DNA of 64,000 nucleotides from Acidobacteriota bacterium (GTDB lineage: Bacteria > Acidobacteriota > Vicinamibacteria > Vicinamibacterales > SCN-69-37): assembly GCA_947467605.1 (NCBI GenBank), contig CANIII010000014.1, positions 1-64,000 on the forward strand, read 5' to 3'. The position numbers and the translations under genes are program-made. Position 1 is the stretch's first letter, and every line of letters starts with the position of its first letter. The notes below the pieces were generated by a model. It was not told where the DNA came from and did no database searches. It saw only the letters and a list, made by a program, of their open reading frames with translations. Shown here in pieces: positions 51,891 to 59,797 of this stretch.

Positions 51891-53168
51891 CTAGTCTCGA
51901 CGATCTTCAACAATGGCCGCCGGGAGCAGTGCAACAGGAGCGGCATCGTTGCCGTCGCCCCGGTGCCGGTCGTGGCGGTCATCGCGGTCGGCACGGTCGT
52001 GATCGCAGTGGTCGCCTTCCTTGTGACCGTTGATGCGGCGGTCGTGGTCACAGGTGTCACCCTTCGTGTGCTTGGTGATGCGGTCGTGGTCGCAGCCATC
52101 GCCGTCCTTGTGACCGTTCTTCTTGCGGTCGTGATCGCAGTAGTCGCCGGAGTGATGGCCGCCACCCTGATCATCGTTGTCGCCCGAGTGGTGATCGTCG
52201 CTATCGCCGTAGTGGTGGTGATCCGTCTCGTTGGCCACGCACGCATTGTCGTCTGACGATGCGTCTCCACGATGCTCGTCGTGTTCACAACGATCACCGT
52301 CCGAGTGGCCGTTGACCTTGCGATCGTGATCGCAACCGTCGCCTGCACCGTGGCCGTGGCCTTCGCGCTCGTGCGCGCAGCCGTCGCCCTCGTTGTGACC
52401 GTTGGCGCCGCGCTCGTGATCACAGTCGTCGCCATCGTTGTGATGCGTCGTCTGCTTCTCGTGATCGCAACCGTCACCGGCGTAGTGCCACCACGAGTAC
52501 CAGCTGTAGCGCTCGTGCGAGCAGCCGTCGCCGTCGTAGTGCGTCGGGTCGCTCAGCTCGTGATCGCACTGGTCGCCGTTGTAGTGACCGTTCTGGCCGA
52601 GCTCGTGATCGCAGAGGTCGCCGTCGCGATGACGATGCAGGTCATTGTCGTGGCCGCAGCCGTCACCTTCGTGGTGGCCGTTGCGCTTGCGGTCGTGGTC
52701 ACAGCCATCACCCGCGTAGTGGCGGTCCATGGCCTTGTCATGGCTGCAGTGATCGCCATCCTGGTGACCCGACGCACGGCGGTCATGGTCGCAACCATCG
52801 CCGTCGTAGTGTGCCGTCACCATGATCGACACGGTCGCCGACGCGCTGACGCTGTTGTTGTAGGCCGAGCGGATCTTGTAGGTCAGCGAGTCGCTGCCGG
52901 CGTAGTTGGACGCCGGCGTGTAGATGAGGCTGCCATCCGCGTTGACCTTCACCGTGCCGTGCGCGGTGGAGGTCGTGCTGCCGACCTTGTAGGAGCTGCC
53001 GTTGACTTCCGTGACCGTGATGCCGCGGTCGAATGGATCCGCGTCGTTCGCGAGCACGCCACCCTCGGCCTTCAGCACCAGCGCGTGATTCTTGTTGGTC
53101 GCGTAGGTGTCGTCATTCGCCGAGAGCGAGCAGACCACTGAAGTAATGGTGATGGTGACGGTGGCCAC
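51891..53168 (-). CDS. C-terminal piece of giant surface protein: cadherin-like domain plus GDxCxHD repeat tail
   Basis: 425 residues in the frame after the frameshift near 53.2 kb. Residues 1-118 are the tenth cadherin/VCBS-like unit of the giant protein (NDDTYATNKNHALVLKAEGG, NYAGSDSLTYKIRSAYNNS). From residue 122 to about 402 there are about 16 copies of a 15-residue unit rich in Cys, His and Asp (GDGCDHDRKxNGHxD). The end is a short tail (APVALLPAAIVEDRRD) with no sorting signal I recognise. The GTG at 53168 is only the first possible start and has no independent N-terminus, so this is a fragment of the upstream gene. Confidence 0.8.
   Translation of the reverse strand: MATVTITITSVVCSLSANDDTYATNKNHALVLKAEGGVLANDADPFDRGITVTEVNGSSYKVGSTTSTAHGTVKVNADGSLIYTPASNYAGSDSLTYKIRSAYNNSVSASATVSIMVTAHYDGDGCDHDRRASGHQDGDHCSHDKAMDRHYAGDGCDHDRKRNGHHEGDGCGHDNDLHRHRDGDLCDHELGQNGHYNGDQCDHELSDPTHYDGDGCSHERYSWYSWWHYAGDGCDHEKQTTHHNDGDDCDHERGANGHNEGDGCAHEREGHGHGAGDGCDHDRKVNGHSDGDRCEHDEHRGDASSDDNACVANETDHHHYGDSDDHHSGDNDDQGGGHHSGDYCDHDRKKNGHKDGDGCDHDRITKHTKGDTCDHDRRINGHKEGDHCDHDRADRDDRHDRHRGDGNDAAPVALLPAAIVEDRRD
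51963..52805 (-). repeat. Array of about 16 units coding a 15-residue Cys/His/Asp repeat
   Basis: The unit is about 45 bp; typical peptides are AGDGCDHDRKRNGHH, DGDGCDHDRRASGHQ and EGDHCDHDRADRDD. Fixed positions are Gly-Asp, one Cys, His and Asp/Glu, and often a second Gly-His. One unit (near the middle) has a longer Ser/Tyr/Trp insert, and one is followed by a His/Asp-rich stretch of about 35 residues (DHHHYGDSDDHHSGDNDDQ). DNA copies differ at many third positions, so the array is not very recent and is under protein-level selection. Confidence 0.9.
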
Positions 53169-53176
53169 GTTGCTGT

Positions 53177-56100
53177 TCAGGCCCGACGCATCCTTGACGC
53201 GGTAAGGAAGCTATCGGAGCCGACGTAGTTGGTCGCCGGCAGGTAGCTGAACGAGCCATCCGCATTGAAGGTGAGCGCGCCGTGGGTCGTCGTGGCCACG
53301 ATTTGCGCCGTGATGACGTCCTGATCAGGATCGGAGTCGTTCGTCTTCACGCCCGGTGCGGAGATCGTCAACCGCGTGTTCTTGAGCGTCGAGTAGCCGT
53401 CGTTGACCGCGACGGGTGCGCGGTTCTGTGCCGCGCACGCGGCGTCCGCGAGCAGATAGCCGCGATCGGCGGTGCCGTTATCGAAGTTCTGGTTGATGGC
53501 ATCGACGATGCCGTTCAGATCCGAGATCGACACGTTCGTCGGCGGCAGGGTTCCGCCGAGCACGCCGTTCGCAATCGCCAGCACCTGGCCGACCGTGTAG
53601 CCTGCCAGCTTGCCAGACGCCAGAACCTTGGCCGCGAGACCGCCCTTGGTCACGCGCGCCGTCGAGAAGTCGACGTTCAGTTGCAGCGCAAGTACCTGAC
53701 CGGCGAACACGCCACCCTTGCTCGAGGTCGGGTTAACGACCGTGTACTGGAGCTTGTTTGGTGCGCCACCCTGCGGGAGGAACGCATCGATCGCAGCCAC
53801 ACTCGTGAAGGTCAGCGTACGACCGCCGCCGATCTGCACCGACCCGGCCGGATATACGGTCAAGAACTTCGAGGCCAGCAAGGCACCGGGGTTCGATCCG
53901 CTCGGCGAGGATCCCCATCCACCCTGCGTGAACGTCGTTGACGCGCCCGGCTCACATCCGGAGACCGTGATCGTGACCGTCGCCGTCGCCACGCCGCCGC
54001 GACCATCGCTGATCGTGTAGGTGAACGTATCCGTGCCGGTGTAACCGACGGTTGGCGTGTAGGAGAAGACATTGCCCACGCGTGTGACCGTGCCATGCGC
54101 AGGCGCGGTGTTGGCCGTCACGACCAGGGCGTCACCGTCCGGATCGCTGTCGTTGCTGATGACCGGGATTGACGTGGCGAAGTTCGCAAACGCCGTCACC
54201 GCGTCGTTGACCGCGACGGGCGGGCGGTTCGCCTGCGTGACCGTCAGCGTGCCATTGACGTAGGTGATCGCGTAGTTCGCCAGTCCCGTGCCGACCGCCG
54301 CGCTCGGCACGATCGGGTAGCTGCCGGCGGCTGCCGACGATGCCGCGCCCGTGCTGGTCAGCATCGCACTGGTGACGGTGTCGCCATTGATCAGGCCCCC
54401 TGCCGTGAACTCGGTCCCGACAAACGTGACCACCGTGCCGGATACCTTTGAGGTGCTGTTGGCCGTGATGGTCAGCGGCGCCTTCGTGACAGTGATCGCA
54501 CCGTTCACGTAGTTGATCGTGTAGTCGGTCAGGTTTGTGCCAACAACCGCGCTCGGCACAATCGCGTACGGCGAACCGGCGACTGGCGCCGTCGCCACCG
54601 CGCCGACCGTCGTCAGAGTCACCGCGCTGATCGAGTCAGTGCTGGCCAGACCCGACGATGTGAACACGGGCGTCACTGCCGTGCCGTAGACCTTGCTCAG
54701 TGGCGTGGCCGTGATGGTCAGCGGCGCGGGATTGATGCGCACCGTTCCGGTCGCCGAAGCGCTCAGGTACCGCCCGTCGCCAGCAAAGGCGCACGTCGCC
54801 GTGTAGGTCCCGACGTGCACAGACAACGCCGGCACGTAGGTCAACGTGCCCGGGAGTGCCGTGCCGTCGCCACCCAGAATCGCGCAGCTGGTGCCGTGCG
54901 AGAGGCCGTCGTAGGTCACGGTCACGTTGGGCACCGTGGCCGTCGTCGGGCCAAGAATCATGATGCTGACCGTCGCCAGGTTGCTGACGAGGCCGCCGGC
55001 GTCCTTCGCGCGATACGCGTAGGTGTCGACACCGAAGTAACCCGTGGTCGGCGTGTAGACGAGCGAGCCGTCCGCGTTCTGAGTCACCGTACCGTGCTGC
55101 GGTGTCGTGTTCAACGGCAGGTTCACCGTCAACGCACCACCCTCCGGGTCGCGGTCGTTGGTCAGAATGCCCGTGGCCGGCACCGTCAGCGCGGTGTTCA
55201 TCGACGTGACGTACGAGTCGTTGGCCGCGATTGGCGCCAGGTTCAGCGGCGGATTCGCGCTGCAGCCCGTGATGGCGGCCGGGTAGGCCACCGAGACTTC
55301 CCGAACCTTCGACGCCACCGTAAAGCGCATCGTCACGGCCGGCTTGGTCAGCTCAAATCCGTCCACGCCTTCGATCCAGAGGACCCCCGAGAGCAACCAG
55401 CCCGGCCAGTCGACCGGGAGGCCGGCCACAATCACCGTGCCCGGCCACACCACGCGGCCAGAGATCGGCTGGTTGGTGTCCGTGCGAACAATGCGGCTCG
55501 AGGAGTCGATCCAATCAATCTGCGCGGTCGTGCCAACTGGGAACGTGTAGTTCACCGGCGCGAGCGTGTAGTCGACAAACGCGGCGTTGGTCGCACACAC
55601 CGGCGTGGCCGTCGCGGTCATCGATGTTGGAATCACCGTGATGGTCACGGTGACCGTGTTGCTGACGCCGCCCTTCGAGTCGCGCACGAAGTAGGTGAAG
55701 GTGTCTGTGCCGGAGAAGCCAGTCGTCGGCACGTAAGTGAACGTGCCATCGAGACCGAACACCAGCGATCCGTGACCCACCGTGCTGACCATCGTCGCGG
55801 TCAGCGCCGTGACGTTGTCATCCACGTCCGTGTCGTTGCGCTGAATGAAGCCCTGCGCGGCGTTCGTGATCGCCAGCGTGTTGCCCTGCAGCACGGAGTA
55901 GCTGTCGGCCACGGCCACCGGCAGGTCATTGACCGGCGTGATCGTGATCGTCACCGTCGCCACATTCGCGCTCAGCGCACCGAGTTCGTCCTGCACGCGA
56001 TAGGTGTAGCTGTCGGTGCCGTTGTAGTTGAGCACCGGCGTGTACACCAGCGAGCCGTTGGCGTTCTGCGTCACGGTGCCGTGCGTCGGCAGCGAGACCA

Positions 56101-59100
56101 GCGGAAGCACCGCCGTCAGTGTTGAGCCGGCATCGGCGTCCGTGTCATTGGCCAGAATGCCGGCCACCGGAACCGTCAACACCGTATCCTCGGCCGTCGT
56201 GTAGCTGTCGTTGACCGCCACCGGCAGGGCGTTCACGCGAATCGTCACCGTCGCCGTGTTGCTCGAGAGGCCGTAAGGATCCGAGACCTTGTAGGTGAAC
56301 GTGACGTTGCCGGTCACGCCCACCGCGGGCGTGTAAGTGAACGCACCAGAGCCGGCCGTGAACGTGAAGGCGCCAGCCTGTGAGGGCGAGCTGACCAACG
56401 CCGCCGCCATCAGGTCGCGGTCGGGATCCGAATCGTTGAGCAGGAGGTTGCCGCCAGCGACCGTCAGCGTCGATCCGGCATTGACCACATACGAGTCGTT
56501 CACCGCCACGGGCGGGTTGTTGGCCGTCACGATCGAGATCGTCACCGTGGCGACGTTGCTCTGGTAGCTGCCGTTGGTCACGCGATACGTGAACGTGTCG
56601 GTGCCGACGTAGTTGTTGACCGGGGTGTAGGTGAACGTGCCGTCGTTGGCCGCGCTCATCGACAACGCGCCGTGCGACGGGTTCGTGAAGGAGAACACCG
56701 TGATGGGCAACCCGCGCGGGTCGGAGTCGTTGTAGAGCAAGCCGTTCCACGCAGCGCCGACCGTCAGCACGACGTTCTTCTGCGTCGAGAAGCTGTCGTT
56801 CACCGCCACCGGTGGCGCCGGGACCACAATCGTCACCGTCGCAGTGTTCGACTGCGCCTCGCCATCCGTCACCTTGTAGGTGAACGTGTCAGTGCCCGTG
56901 TAACCCACGACCGGCGTGTAGGTGAAGCTGCCGTCCGCGTTCACCGTGACCGAACCATGCGACGGCGCGGTCGACGATGCCACGGTCAGCGTCGTGTTTT
57001 CCGGGTCGGTATCGCGACCCGCGGCGTTCTGAATGATGCCGTTCGCCGCGTTGACGGTGAGCGAAGTGCCACCGGTCATCGTGTACGAGTCGTCACGCGC
57101 CACCGGGGCGCCGTTGATCGTGACCGTGACCTGGCCCTGATTGCTGACGCCGGGCACTCCGTAGTTGTCCTGAATCTGGTAGAAGAACGTCACCACGCCC
57201 GACGTGCCGGCCGGCGCCGCGTACTGCAGCTGACCCGACACCACGCTGACCGTGCCGGTCGGCTGGAGTGATGCGTTCATCGGCGTCGTTAGCGAACCCG
57301 CGATGATGCTCTTCACATCGCCCGCGTCCGGATCGGTATCGTTCGCCATCACGTTGATCAGCACCGTGCTACCCGACTGCGCGCGCGCCGTGTCGTTGAC
57401 TGCCACCGGGGGACGATTCGTGTTCGTGATCGTCCACGTGAACGCCGACGACACGGTCGCCGGCAACTGGCCGGTCTGGGTCCACGTGCCCGTCACCGCC
57501 ACGTTGTAGACGACTGGTGGCGCCGTGATGAGGTTCGCCACAATCGCGTACGCCGGTGTGCCGGTGATCTGTCCCGTGACGGAATTCATCGTGAGCCCGG
57601 GCGGCAGCCCCGTTGCCACATAGCTGAACGTCCAGGTGTCGCACGCCACGCCGGAGCACGGCAGCGGCACCGCCGCGATGTTCACCGAGTCACCTTCGGC
57701 GTTCTGACGTGCGCAGAAACCGGCGACCGACGGATCGGTCGGGCCGGACGTCGCGCAGGTCGCTGTGGGCGGCTGCTCGCCCGGGGCGTAGCAGGCTGGA
57801 TCGTTGTAGTCGACGAGGCCGTTGCCGTCGTCGTCACCGGGGGAGGTGATCGAGCAGATTTCGATGCGGAAGCAACCGTTGTCGATGACGCCATCGCCGT
57901 CATCGTCGAGACCGTTGCCGAGACCGTTGACACCGCAGTTTTCGCGGGCGGCGCGATATTCATTCATGACGCAGAGGCCATCCACGACCGTGCTCGTGTG
58001 GGCCACGCCATCAGTCGCGTGAATGCGGCTGCCAAGGACGGCGCCACTCGCGATGTCGAAGCGGTAGACATCCTGGCGCGTCGCGGCCCAGAAGGAGCGG
58101 CCGTCCGGCGTCACCGCCAGCGAGAACCAACCGTCCGCCGTGCCACCGCTGTAGGCGGCGTCGACCGCGTCGTAGGTCTGGATGATCAAGCCGTTACGGT
58201 CTAGACGCAGAATCTGCGCCTCCGTGCCCACCAGATAACCGCCCGTGCCATCGCCCGGAGGCAGTACGCGCACGCCGTAAATCGGCACATCGGTGATCGG
58301 ATGCGACACATCCGTCAGGGCGGCACCGCTCGAGAGCACCGTCGATCCGACGACCGGCTGCTGCACGCCCGTGGCAACGTTGAAACGATAGAGATACTGG
58401 TTCTCAGACGAGTAGATCATCGTCTGCTGATCGGCCATCAAGTCGAGCGCATCGGCACCCGTCGCACCGTAGCGGACGTTCGAGTAGGTCGTCGGGAATC
58501 CGGCCAGGTTCTTGCCGTAGCCGGTCGTGCCGACCGGATACTTGTGGATGTCCATGCCGGCCTGCTCGCGGAGCGCGATCTTCGCGCCGCCTGACGTGCG
58601 CAGGTAGGTGGCCACAAGGCCCGTCCAGGATTCGTAGAACCCGTCGGGCGACACAGCCTGATCCCACGGAATGTAGTTGTTGCCGGCCGACAGGAGCGCC
58701 GCGCCCGCGGCGTCCACCGTGATTAGACCCGCGCCTTCCTGCTTGCGCACGTTCCAGTCTGCCGTGAGCAGCGTGGTCCACGTGGTCTTGGCTTCGTTCC
58801 ACAACGTGGTCGTGATCGCCGGGTACGGATACGACGTTGACACCACCGTGCCGCCGTCGTCATACAAGGTCCCTGGCGTTGGCGAGGCCGTCGTCTTGTA
58901 GCGATTCCAGTCGACGTAGTAGCTGGTGGCGGCGTTGAACCGCGCCGCCAGCGTAAAGTTGTCGTCCATCCAGACCGCTTTGTCGTTGATGTCCGCCGGA
59001 TCGCCGTTGTTGTTGGCGTAGCCGAAGGAATGGCCGACATACATGTTTTGTGCGTTGTCGAACGCAATGCTCTCGACGTTCTGGTCGATCGGATAGATCG

Positions 59101-59218
59101 ATCCGGCCTTCGTGCGCAGCGTGCTGAGCCTGCGGCTGGCGTTCGTGTACGGCGCTGTGGGATCGCTCGTGTGACGCGTGATCACGTTGACGTCCGTATC
59201 GAAGTTGGTCGCCCACAC
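53177..59218 (-). CDS. Central piece of giant surface protein with nine cadherin-like units
   Basis: 2013 codons in one frame. It starts with propeller- or NHL-like text (GYGKNLAGFPTTYSNVRYGA, SPDGFYESWTGL), a Cys-rich stretch (CSGVACDTWTFSYVATGLPP, a putative-Ig domain), then about nine tandem units of the type AVNDSYxxxxxxxLxVxxxGxLxNDxDPD, interrupted by MBG-type domains (LTITATPLSKVYGTAVTP) and a conserved domain (TFTQGGWGSSPSGSNPG). Such proteins are adhesins or surface-layer components. The piece begins with GTG directly after an in-frame TAA at 59219-59221 and ends in a frameshift near 53.2 kb, so it is not an independent gene. Confidence 0.85.
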   Translation of the reverse strand: MWATNFDTDVNVITRHTSDPTAPYTNASRRLSTLRTKAGSIYPIDQNVESIAFDNAQNMYVGHSFGYANNNGDPADINDKAVWMDDNFTLAARFNAATSYYVDWNRYKTTASPTPGTLYDDGGTVVSTSYPYPAITTTLWNEAKTTWTTLLTADWNVRKQEGAGLITVDAAGAALLSAGNNYIPWDQAVSPDGFYESWTGLVATYLRTSGGAKIALREQAGMDIHKYPVGTTGYGKNLAGFPTTYSNVRYGATGADALDLMADQQTMIYSSENQYLYRFNVATGVQQPVVGSTVLSSGAALTDVSHPITDVPIYGVRVLPPGDGTGGYLVGTEAQILRLDRNGLIIQTYDAVDAAYSGGTADGWFSLAVTPDGRSFWAATRQDVYRFDIASGAVLGSRIHATDGVAHTSTVVDGLCVMNEYRAARENCGVNGLGNGLDDDGDGVIDNGCFRIEICSITSPGDDDGNGLVDYNDPACYAPGEQPPTATCATSGPTDPSVAGFCARQNAEGDSVNIAAVPLPCSGVACDTWTFSYVATGLPPGLTMNSVTGQITGTPAYAIVANLITAPPVVYNVAVTGTWTQTGQLPATVSSAFTWTITNTNRPPVAVNDTARAQSGSTVLINVMANDTDPDAGDVKSIIAGSLTTPMNASLQPTGTVSVVSGQLQYAAPAGTSGVVTFFYQIQDNYGVPGVSNQGQVTVTINGAPVARDDSYTMTGGTSLTVNAANGIIQNAAGRDTDPENTTLTVASSTAPSHGSVTVNADGSFTYTPVVGYTGTDTFTYKVTDGEAQSNTATVTIVVPAPPVAVNDSFSTQKNVVLTVGAAWNGLLYNDSDPRGLPITVFSFTNPSHGALSMSAANDGTFTYTPVNNYVGTDTFTYRVTNGSYQSNVATVTISIVTANNPPVAVNDSYVVNAGSTLTVAGGNLLLNDSDPDRDLMAAALVSSPSQAGAFTFTAGSGAFTYTPAVGVTGNVTFTYKVSDPYGLSSNTATVTIRVNALPVAVNDSYTTAEDTVLTVPVAGILANDTDADAGSTLTAVLPLVSLPTHGTVTQNANGSLVYTPVLNYNGTDSYTYRVQDELGALSANVATVTITITPVNDLPVAVADSYSVLQGNTLAITNAAQGFIQRNDTDVDDNVTALTATMVSTVGHGSLVFGLDGTFTYVPTTGFSGTDTFTYFVRDSKGGVSNTVTVTITVIPTSMTATATPVCATNAAFVDYTLAPVNYTFPVGTTAQIDWIDSSSRIVRTDTNQPISGRVVWPGTVIVAGLPVDWPGWLLSGVLWIEGVDGFELTKPAVTMRFTVASKVREVSVAYPAAITGCSANPPLNLAPIAANDSYVTSMNTALTVPATGILTNDRDPEGGALTVNLPLNTTPQHGTVTQNADGSLVYTPTTGYFGVDTYAYRAKDAGGLVSNLATVSIMILGPTTATVPNVTVTYDGLSHGTSCAILGGDGTALPGTLTYVPALSVHVGTYTATCAFAGDGRYLSASATGTVRINPAPLTITATPLSKVYGTAVTPVFTSSGLASTDSISAVTLTTVGAVATAPVAGSPYAIVPSAVVGTNLTDYTINYVNGAITVTKAPLTITANSTSKVSGTVVTFVGTEFTAGGLINGDTVTSAMLTSTGAASSAAAGSYPIVPSAAVGTGLANYAITYVNGTLTVTQANRPPVAVNDAVTAFANFATSIPVISNDSDPDGDALVVTANTAPAHGTVTRVGNVFSYTPTVGYTGTDTFTYTISDGRGGVATATVTITVSGCEPGASTTFTQGGWGSSPSGSNPGALLASKFLTVYPAGSVQIGGGRTLTFTSVAAIDAFLPQGGAPNKLQYTVVNPTSSKGGVFAGQVLALQLNVDFSTARVTKGGLAAKVLASGKLAGYTVGQVLAIANGVLGGTLPPTNVSISDLNGIVDAINQNFDNGTADRGYLLADAACAAQNRAPVAVNDGYSTLKNTRLTISAPGVKTNDSDPDQDVITAQIVATTTHGALTFNADGSFSYLPATNYVGSDSFLTASRMRRA

Positions 59219-59797
59219 TTAGCCAGTCTTCCAGTTGGCCGCACAACCGGTCGTGAACATCTCGGTCTGGGTCGGACCACCGAGTTTCACGTCGTATTTG
59301 AATTCGCCGTCCTTCGTGTACACCTGATAAGTCGACGAACCACCGCCAACGAACACGTCGCCGGAACCCCAGCGGCCAATATCCCAAGTGAAGGCATTCG
59401 AGACGCTGCTGTCGCTCGCCTGAATCGTGACCGTGTAGACGCCTTCAGAACCTGTGTAGCTGCCGGCGTTCGTCACCGGGTCGGTGCCCGCGCCGCCCCG
59501 CGCCAACGTGCCACGCAACACGCCACGCGAGTGCGCGCCCGTGCCGTCTGTGAAATTTTCTGTATCGATACGAATGCCGGTCGGAAGACCCGTGGCCGTG
59601 TATGTGAGACCTGCCGGTTGCGTCAACGCCGCGACGGCGATGGAAATAGTGTCGCCTTCACCGTGGATCAAATTCGGGAGGACGGGAAATCCAGCGCCAG
59701 CCGAAGAGAATGCATGAATGCCTGTGCGCGCGCCCGCAAGTACGCCAGCGAGTGCAACAGCCATTCCGAATCGAATCCACAAGCGACGTGTCGTCAT
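59219..59797 (-). CDS. N-terminal piece of giant surface protein with signal peptide
   Basis: 192 residues. The ATG at 59797 begins a signal peptide (RLWIRFGMAVALAGVLAGAR), followed by a beta-rich domain (YTGSEGVYTVTIQASDSSVS) and the start of a propeller-like segment (FVGGGSSTYQVYTKDGEFKY, MFTTGCAANWKTG). A TAA ends the frame, but the next codons in the same frame (VWATNFDTDVNVITRH) continue the domain without a gap. It is the start of the gene that continues in the two other pieces. An AT-rich region upstream probably holds the promoter. Confidence 0.85.
   Translation of the reverse strand: MTTRRLWIRFGMAVALAGVLAGARTGIHAFSSAGAGFPVLPNLIHGEGDTISIAVAALTQPAGLTYTATGLPTGIRIDTENFTDGTGAHSRGVLRGTLARGGAGTDPVTNAGSYTGSEGVYTVTIQASDSSVSNAFTWDIGRWGSGDVFVGGGSSTYQVYTKDGEFKYDVKLGGPTQTEMFTTGCAANWKTG

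Follow-up and report, generated by a model that had tools for sequence, protein, structure and literature searches.

Thrombospondin type 3 repeats (PF02412) resemble the repeat tail described here: they are extracellular, short and rich in Asp, and they include a GDxC step; such repeats are present elsewhere in sister proteins. The tail is encoded in a 64,000-nucleotide stretch of an acidobacterial contig (CANIII010000014.1; hereafter, the window). It differs from thrombospondin type 3 repeats in having neither DxDxDG loops nor a Pfam match and in its two invariant His per unit and 15-residue period. In a published survey, His/Asp-rich low-complexity regions were over-represented among proteins related to nickel, cobalt and other metals (PMC6821194). 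With the His-rich metal-binding segments of Ni, Co and Zn proteins treated there, the tail, which is predicted to be disordered, shares a His/Asp-rich, low-complexity composition, but it has a strict motif with one Cys per unit, is located at the C-terminus of a giant surface protein, and binds metal only putatively. A planctomycete ArsP_1 permease (PF03773; L016:2687-3865) has a His-rich N-terminus that reads HHHGDECDHEHGHEH twice with a 15-aa period, so that HGDECDHE is repeated at the same spacing as in the tail; unlike the tail, this segment is N-terminal on a membrane permease, and the two proteins have no domains in common. The body of the window protein belongs to the tandem-95/Big_9 giant adhesin-like proteins (NF012211, PF17963), a family that is uninformative on the tail; the orthologues of the window protein in the genomes G001 and G007 are tailless.

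The host gene and the array lie on the minus strand and comprise the following features:

51891..53168, minus strand: open frame with the last Big_9 domain and the array, ending in ...PAAIVEDRRD and a stop; open up to about 53210
51972..52811, minus strand: array of 16 HxxGDxCxH[DE] units with a period of 15 aa (motif count, DNA pattern scan)
52158..52253, minus strand: interruption of the array following unit 12; its two degenerate units, HHYGDSD and HHSGDND, have Asp in place of Cys
52830..53120, minus strand: last Big_9 (bacterial Ig/cadherin-like) domain, immediately ahead of the array (Pfam; AlphaFold beta fold)
53177..53210, minus strand: overlap of the main-ORF frame with the frame of the array, marking a frameshift (frame comparison)
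53177..59218, minus strand: main ORF of the giant protein, 2013 aa, with nine Big_9 stretches, MBG_2 and He_PIG (ORF and Pfam/NCBIfam)
59219..59797, minus strand: N-terminal 192 aa with a hydrophobic leader, ended by an in-frame TAA (59219-59221); open in the orthologues G001 and G007

The nine Big_9 stretches of the main ORF score 499.7 bits, with one more domain in the array frame, and the N-terminal leader reaches a hydropathy maximum of 1.74 over 17 residues. The earlier note, written from the sequence alone, had placed the array in the tail of a giant surface protein; the array is indeed the C-terminus of a Big_9 protein, but only if the frameshift at 53177-53210 is bridged. Two orthologues of the same family, 1749 aa long in G001 and 1525 aa long in G007, occupy the same locus beside oligopeptide-ABC genes, with a lolD-like gene on the other side in both G001 and the window; the two are open, also where the window gene has its in-frame stop. 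Because both orthologues lack the tail, it is dispensable to the basic role of the protein. The giant gene is either broken in two places or affected by two assembly errors. As assembled, the gene contains an in-frame stop and a frameshift, and the genome assembly, in 32 contigs, is 93.7% complete; on these grounds the array might be taken for decaying low-complexity sequence in a broken gene with no present function. We consider this very improbable: both lesions could be assembly errors, the array frame is open over 439 aa, the motif columns are under strong selection, and the motif is kept by intact relatives.

The array consists of exactly 16 GDxC units, where about 16 tandem copies of GDxCxH[D/E] had been noted, and all 16 fit the fuller motif HxxGDxCxH[DE]. 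The consensus of each unit is H-x-x-G-D-x-C-(D)-H-(D/E), opening with an invariant His three residues ahead of GD. The His of the frequent Gly-His pair, reported previously as part of the unit, is the invariant opening His of the next unit. The period of about 15 residues holds as well, with a unit-to-unit spacing of exactly 15 in 12 of the 15 intervals; the other three measure 14, 18 and 50 residues, the last being the array break that contains the two degenerate units. The measured span is 51972-52811; 51963-52805 had been given initially. When the tail residues were shuffled with composition kept, at most one HxxGDxCxH[DE] match was found in 5000 shuffles, against 16 in the real tail, and a two-unit DNA pattern with exact 45-base spacing matched 12 times in the window versus 0 in 100 shuffles.

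The 16 units were compared as codons (codon identity, pN/pS). Codon identity at the fixed G/D/C/H columns is 0.61, near the 0.46-0.68 expected from codon usage, which bears out the drifted third codon positions remarked on before; unit identity does not depend on the distance between units. The pN/pS ratio is 0.057 at the GDxCxH[DE] columns versus 0.3-1.4 at the remaining columns. The G, D and C columns served to find the units and hence are partly chosen, but no such choice was made for His(-3), His(+5) and Asp/Glu(+6), which are invariant too. Saturation of the synonymous sites next to near-invariance of the GDxCxH[DE] columns marks the array as old and under strong purifying selection, and not as a recent duplication.

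No tail matched Pfam, NCBIfam or PDB sequences, in agreement with the initial impression that the pattern has no named family; the only NCBIfam hit of the tails, to the zinc uptake protein ZrgA, is not significant (E 5.5). RTX GGxGxD and haem CxxCH motifs are both absent from the window tail (0 of each), and no description of the repeat was found in the literature, including for the literal peptide. By these comparisons, the repeat is an unnamed, new family of the general kind of Cys/His-rich, possibly metal-binding tails. A named candidate would be an acidic, calcium-binding repeat like that of thrombospondin type 3, given that GDxCDxD resembles part of TSP_3 and that one tail (C5 of genome G106) comes after TSP_3-like repeats. 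This assignment is highly unlikely: Pfam TSP_3 did not match any of five tails at E up to 10, although the same library finds TSP_3 elsewhere in one of these proteins (L015), outside its tail; the window tail has 0 DxDxDG calcium loops; and the invariant His is not a usual calcium ligand. With His invariant and the DxDxDG loop missing, calcium is unlikely as the bound metal.

Relatives of the tail were sought by running the two-unit DNA pattern over about 85,000 species genomes. Six contigs matched, whereas a scan of genome contigs with tail peptide words gave no matches. Four of the six are acidobacterial. One (L014/G002), from the same genus as the window and next to the same ABC genes, has three Cys units, two of them with the full motif. 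The others (L015/G106, L018/G120 and L017/G075) have exactly two units each after a Big_9 domain, located at the very end of the protein in the first two and followed by a low-complexity stretch in the third. The sole bona fide protein outside the phylum was the planctomycete ArsP_1 permease described above; the match on the remaining contig (L019) lay in a frame that makes no sense as coding sequence and was attributed to chance. When the 162 genomes of the order were all searched with profiles, the tails gained were in a third G106 protein, with its tail after TSP_3-like repeats, as well as in G078, where the tail lies in a 137-aa open frame, and in G088. Weak profile matches in G085, G200, G240, G506, G049, G095, G112, G207, G229, G443, G285, G300, G376 and others were attributed from their context to chance or a wrong frame, and one alignment (A3) was discarded because overlapping stretches had been self-aligned and two rows were in the wrong frame.

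Altogether, besides the window, six genomes of the same acidobacterial order carry tails at or near protein C-termini. A seventh, G105, is weak: its only unit is a weak one within an internal linker, and its C-terminus is of another kind, acidic and with Cys. Four of these genomes have 2-3 units of the 15-residue type, and three have a 13-residue sister form, HHDGDGCLPGxHGHW; copy number in the relatives is 2-8, compared with 16 in the window. Both forms occur in G106, which has three tailed proteins; the second giant protein of this genome (L064) ends in the sister form HHDGDGCLPGKHGHWAGDNDHG, repeated, and its array (L064:1801-2397) is built of 26-residue double units in which GDGC alternates with GDND. 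The aligned tails have an invariant H, G, D, C, D, H and then H, G, D, C, H; across five genomes, H, GD, C and H do not vary, and all 24 of the 24 units of the 15-residue type (five genomes, four genera) keep H(-3), D(+1), C(+3) and H(+5). A lack of Cys/His conservation in homologues, the outcome that the earlier note named as telling against its reading, was not observed. Samples totalling 396 genomes across the whole phylum yielded no further convincing tails, and plasmids, phages and viral contigs gave no match. The tail thus appears, as far as genome sequences indicate, to be lineage-restricted, occurring on giant, probably secreted proteins of one acidobacterial order and joined to varying upstream domains.

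This distribution bears on the notion of a C-terminal sorting or attachment tag, in which a surface partner would recognize the HxxGDxC tail and hold several different secreted proteins. In every strong case the tail lies at the C-terminus or close to it; this position, its presence on Big_9, HYR-type and TSP_3 proteins and the three tailed proteins in one genome (G106) are compatible with such a role. We nevertheless find it distinctly improbable, because only about 8 of the 162 genomes of the order have any tail, mostly on a single protein per genome; there is no hydrophobic anchor (highest 19-residue hydropathy only 0.42), LPxTG or relevant NCBIfam CTERM model in the tail; and an expansion to 16 units would be odd for a tag.

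The core common to 41 units is H-x-x-G-D-x-C, with Asp and Cys present in 41 and His in 38; among the exceptions lacking the core His, one is a true TSP_3 repeat. Where HxxGDx units lack Cys, the position holds Asp in 8 and His in 1, a count that takes in one HxxSD unit and leaves out HELSDPT, HDRSDHD and HGDDDGD as non-units. These replacements are pertinent to the possibility that the Cys residues of adjacent units or chains pair, stiffening the tail or tying stalks into a surface array, with His and Asp serving for solubility; the earlier note had raised inter-chain disulfides linking a surface array. In favor of such disulfides, two-unit tails contain exactly two Cys, and paired Cys in other domains of the protein family (for example, C-x5-C in G001) suggest a disulfide-forming location. 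However, the Cys count is odd in some tails (3 in G002, 3 in G078), the two His of each unit are invariant to the same degree as Cys, and Asp or His are the only replacements of a missing Cys, a pattern that fits cross-linking less well. Disulfide linkage is therefore possible but unlikely. Given that Cys is swapped only for metal-ligand residues and that each unit has two invariant His, metal coordination is favored over disulfides.

The explanation that we prefer, and to which we would give about an even chance of being correct, is that the array serves surface stalk proteins as a flexible tail that binds metal multivalently. Metal binding was already suspected in the earlier note; the conserved ligands, the selection on them, the replacement pattern and the surveyed association of His/Asp-rich regions with metal-related proteins speak for it, with the exception of calcium, which was among the metals then named. 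AlphaFold modeling (3 units; 425-aa frame, metal-free) gave no fold for the tail, with pLDDT mostly 35-48, so the tail is predicted to be disordered without ligand. The window array would then be an extended version of a C-terminal tail that is specific to the lineage and carried by giant secreted proteins, presumably flexible while free of ligand. Each unit could hold one transition metal ion (Zn, Cu, Ni or Co) through its His(-3), Asp(+1), Cys(+3), His(+5) and Asp/Glu(+6), perhaps jointly with the unit that follows, and the tail would thereby become a multivalent, metal-loaded polymer. Such a polymer might buffer metal at the cell surface or cross-link the tips of the stalks, either among themselves or with a matrix rich in metal. 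The likeness to the ArsP_1 permease is probably convergent and in keeping with a metal role. Several points count against the metal reading: this likeness may be a convergence of composition; the proteins are probably located outside the cell, where their Cys could be oxidized; the orthologues in G001 and G007 do without the tail; and no metal-related genes were seen in the surroundings of the tailed genes that were read, as judged by eye.

As an unnamed, strictly patterned Cys/His/Asp repeat, the tail has a clear family and boundaries, and a family model can be made now. If the tail binds metal, it would give bacterial surface fibers a natural means of multivalent metal binding, in a phylum where surface biology has received little study, and it might serve as a tag. 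A more speculative idea, which we hold to be unlikely, is that HxxGDxC tails are C-terminal modules of a new class, mediating metal-dependent attachment or cross-linking and common to several secreted proteins of one order, in which the number of units (2 to 16) sets the strength of attachment.

Two further features are of note. In L015, L018 and L046, Asp/Arg/Ser-rich linkers with two flanking Cys, such as CSVSTDNRSRDGRSGDNRSDDHSDDRSVDC, lie between the last two Big_9 domains. At the start of the window (positions 1-1375), a 234-base repeat occurs in six copies that are 80% alike; it belongs to another giant Big_9-containing repeat protein, which is cut by the contig start.
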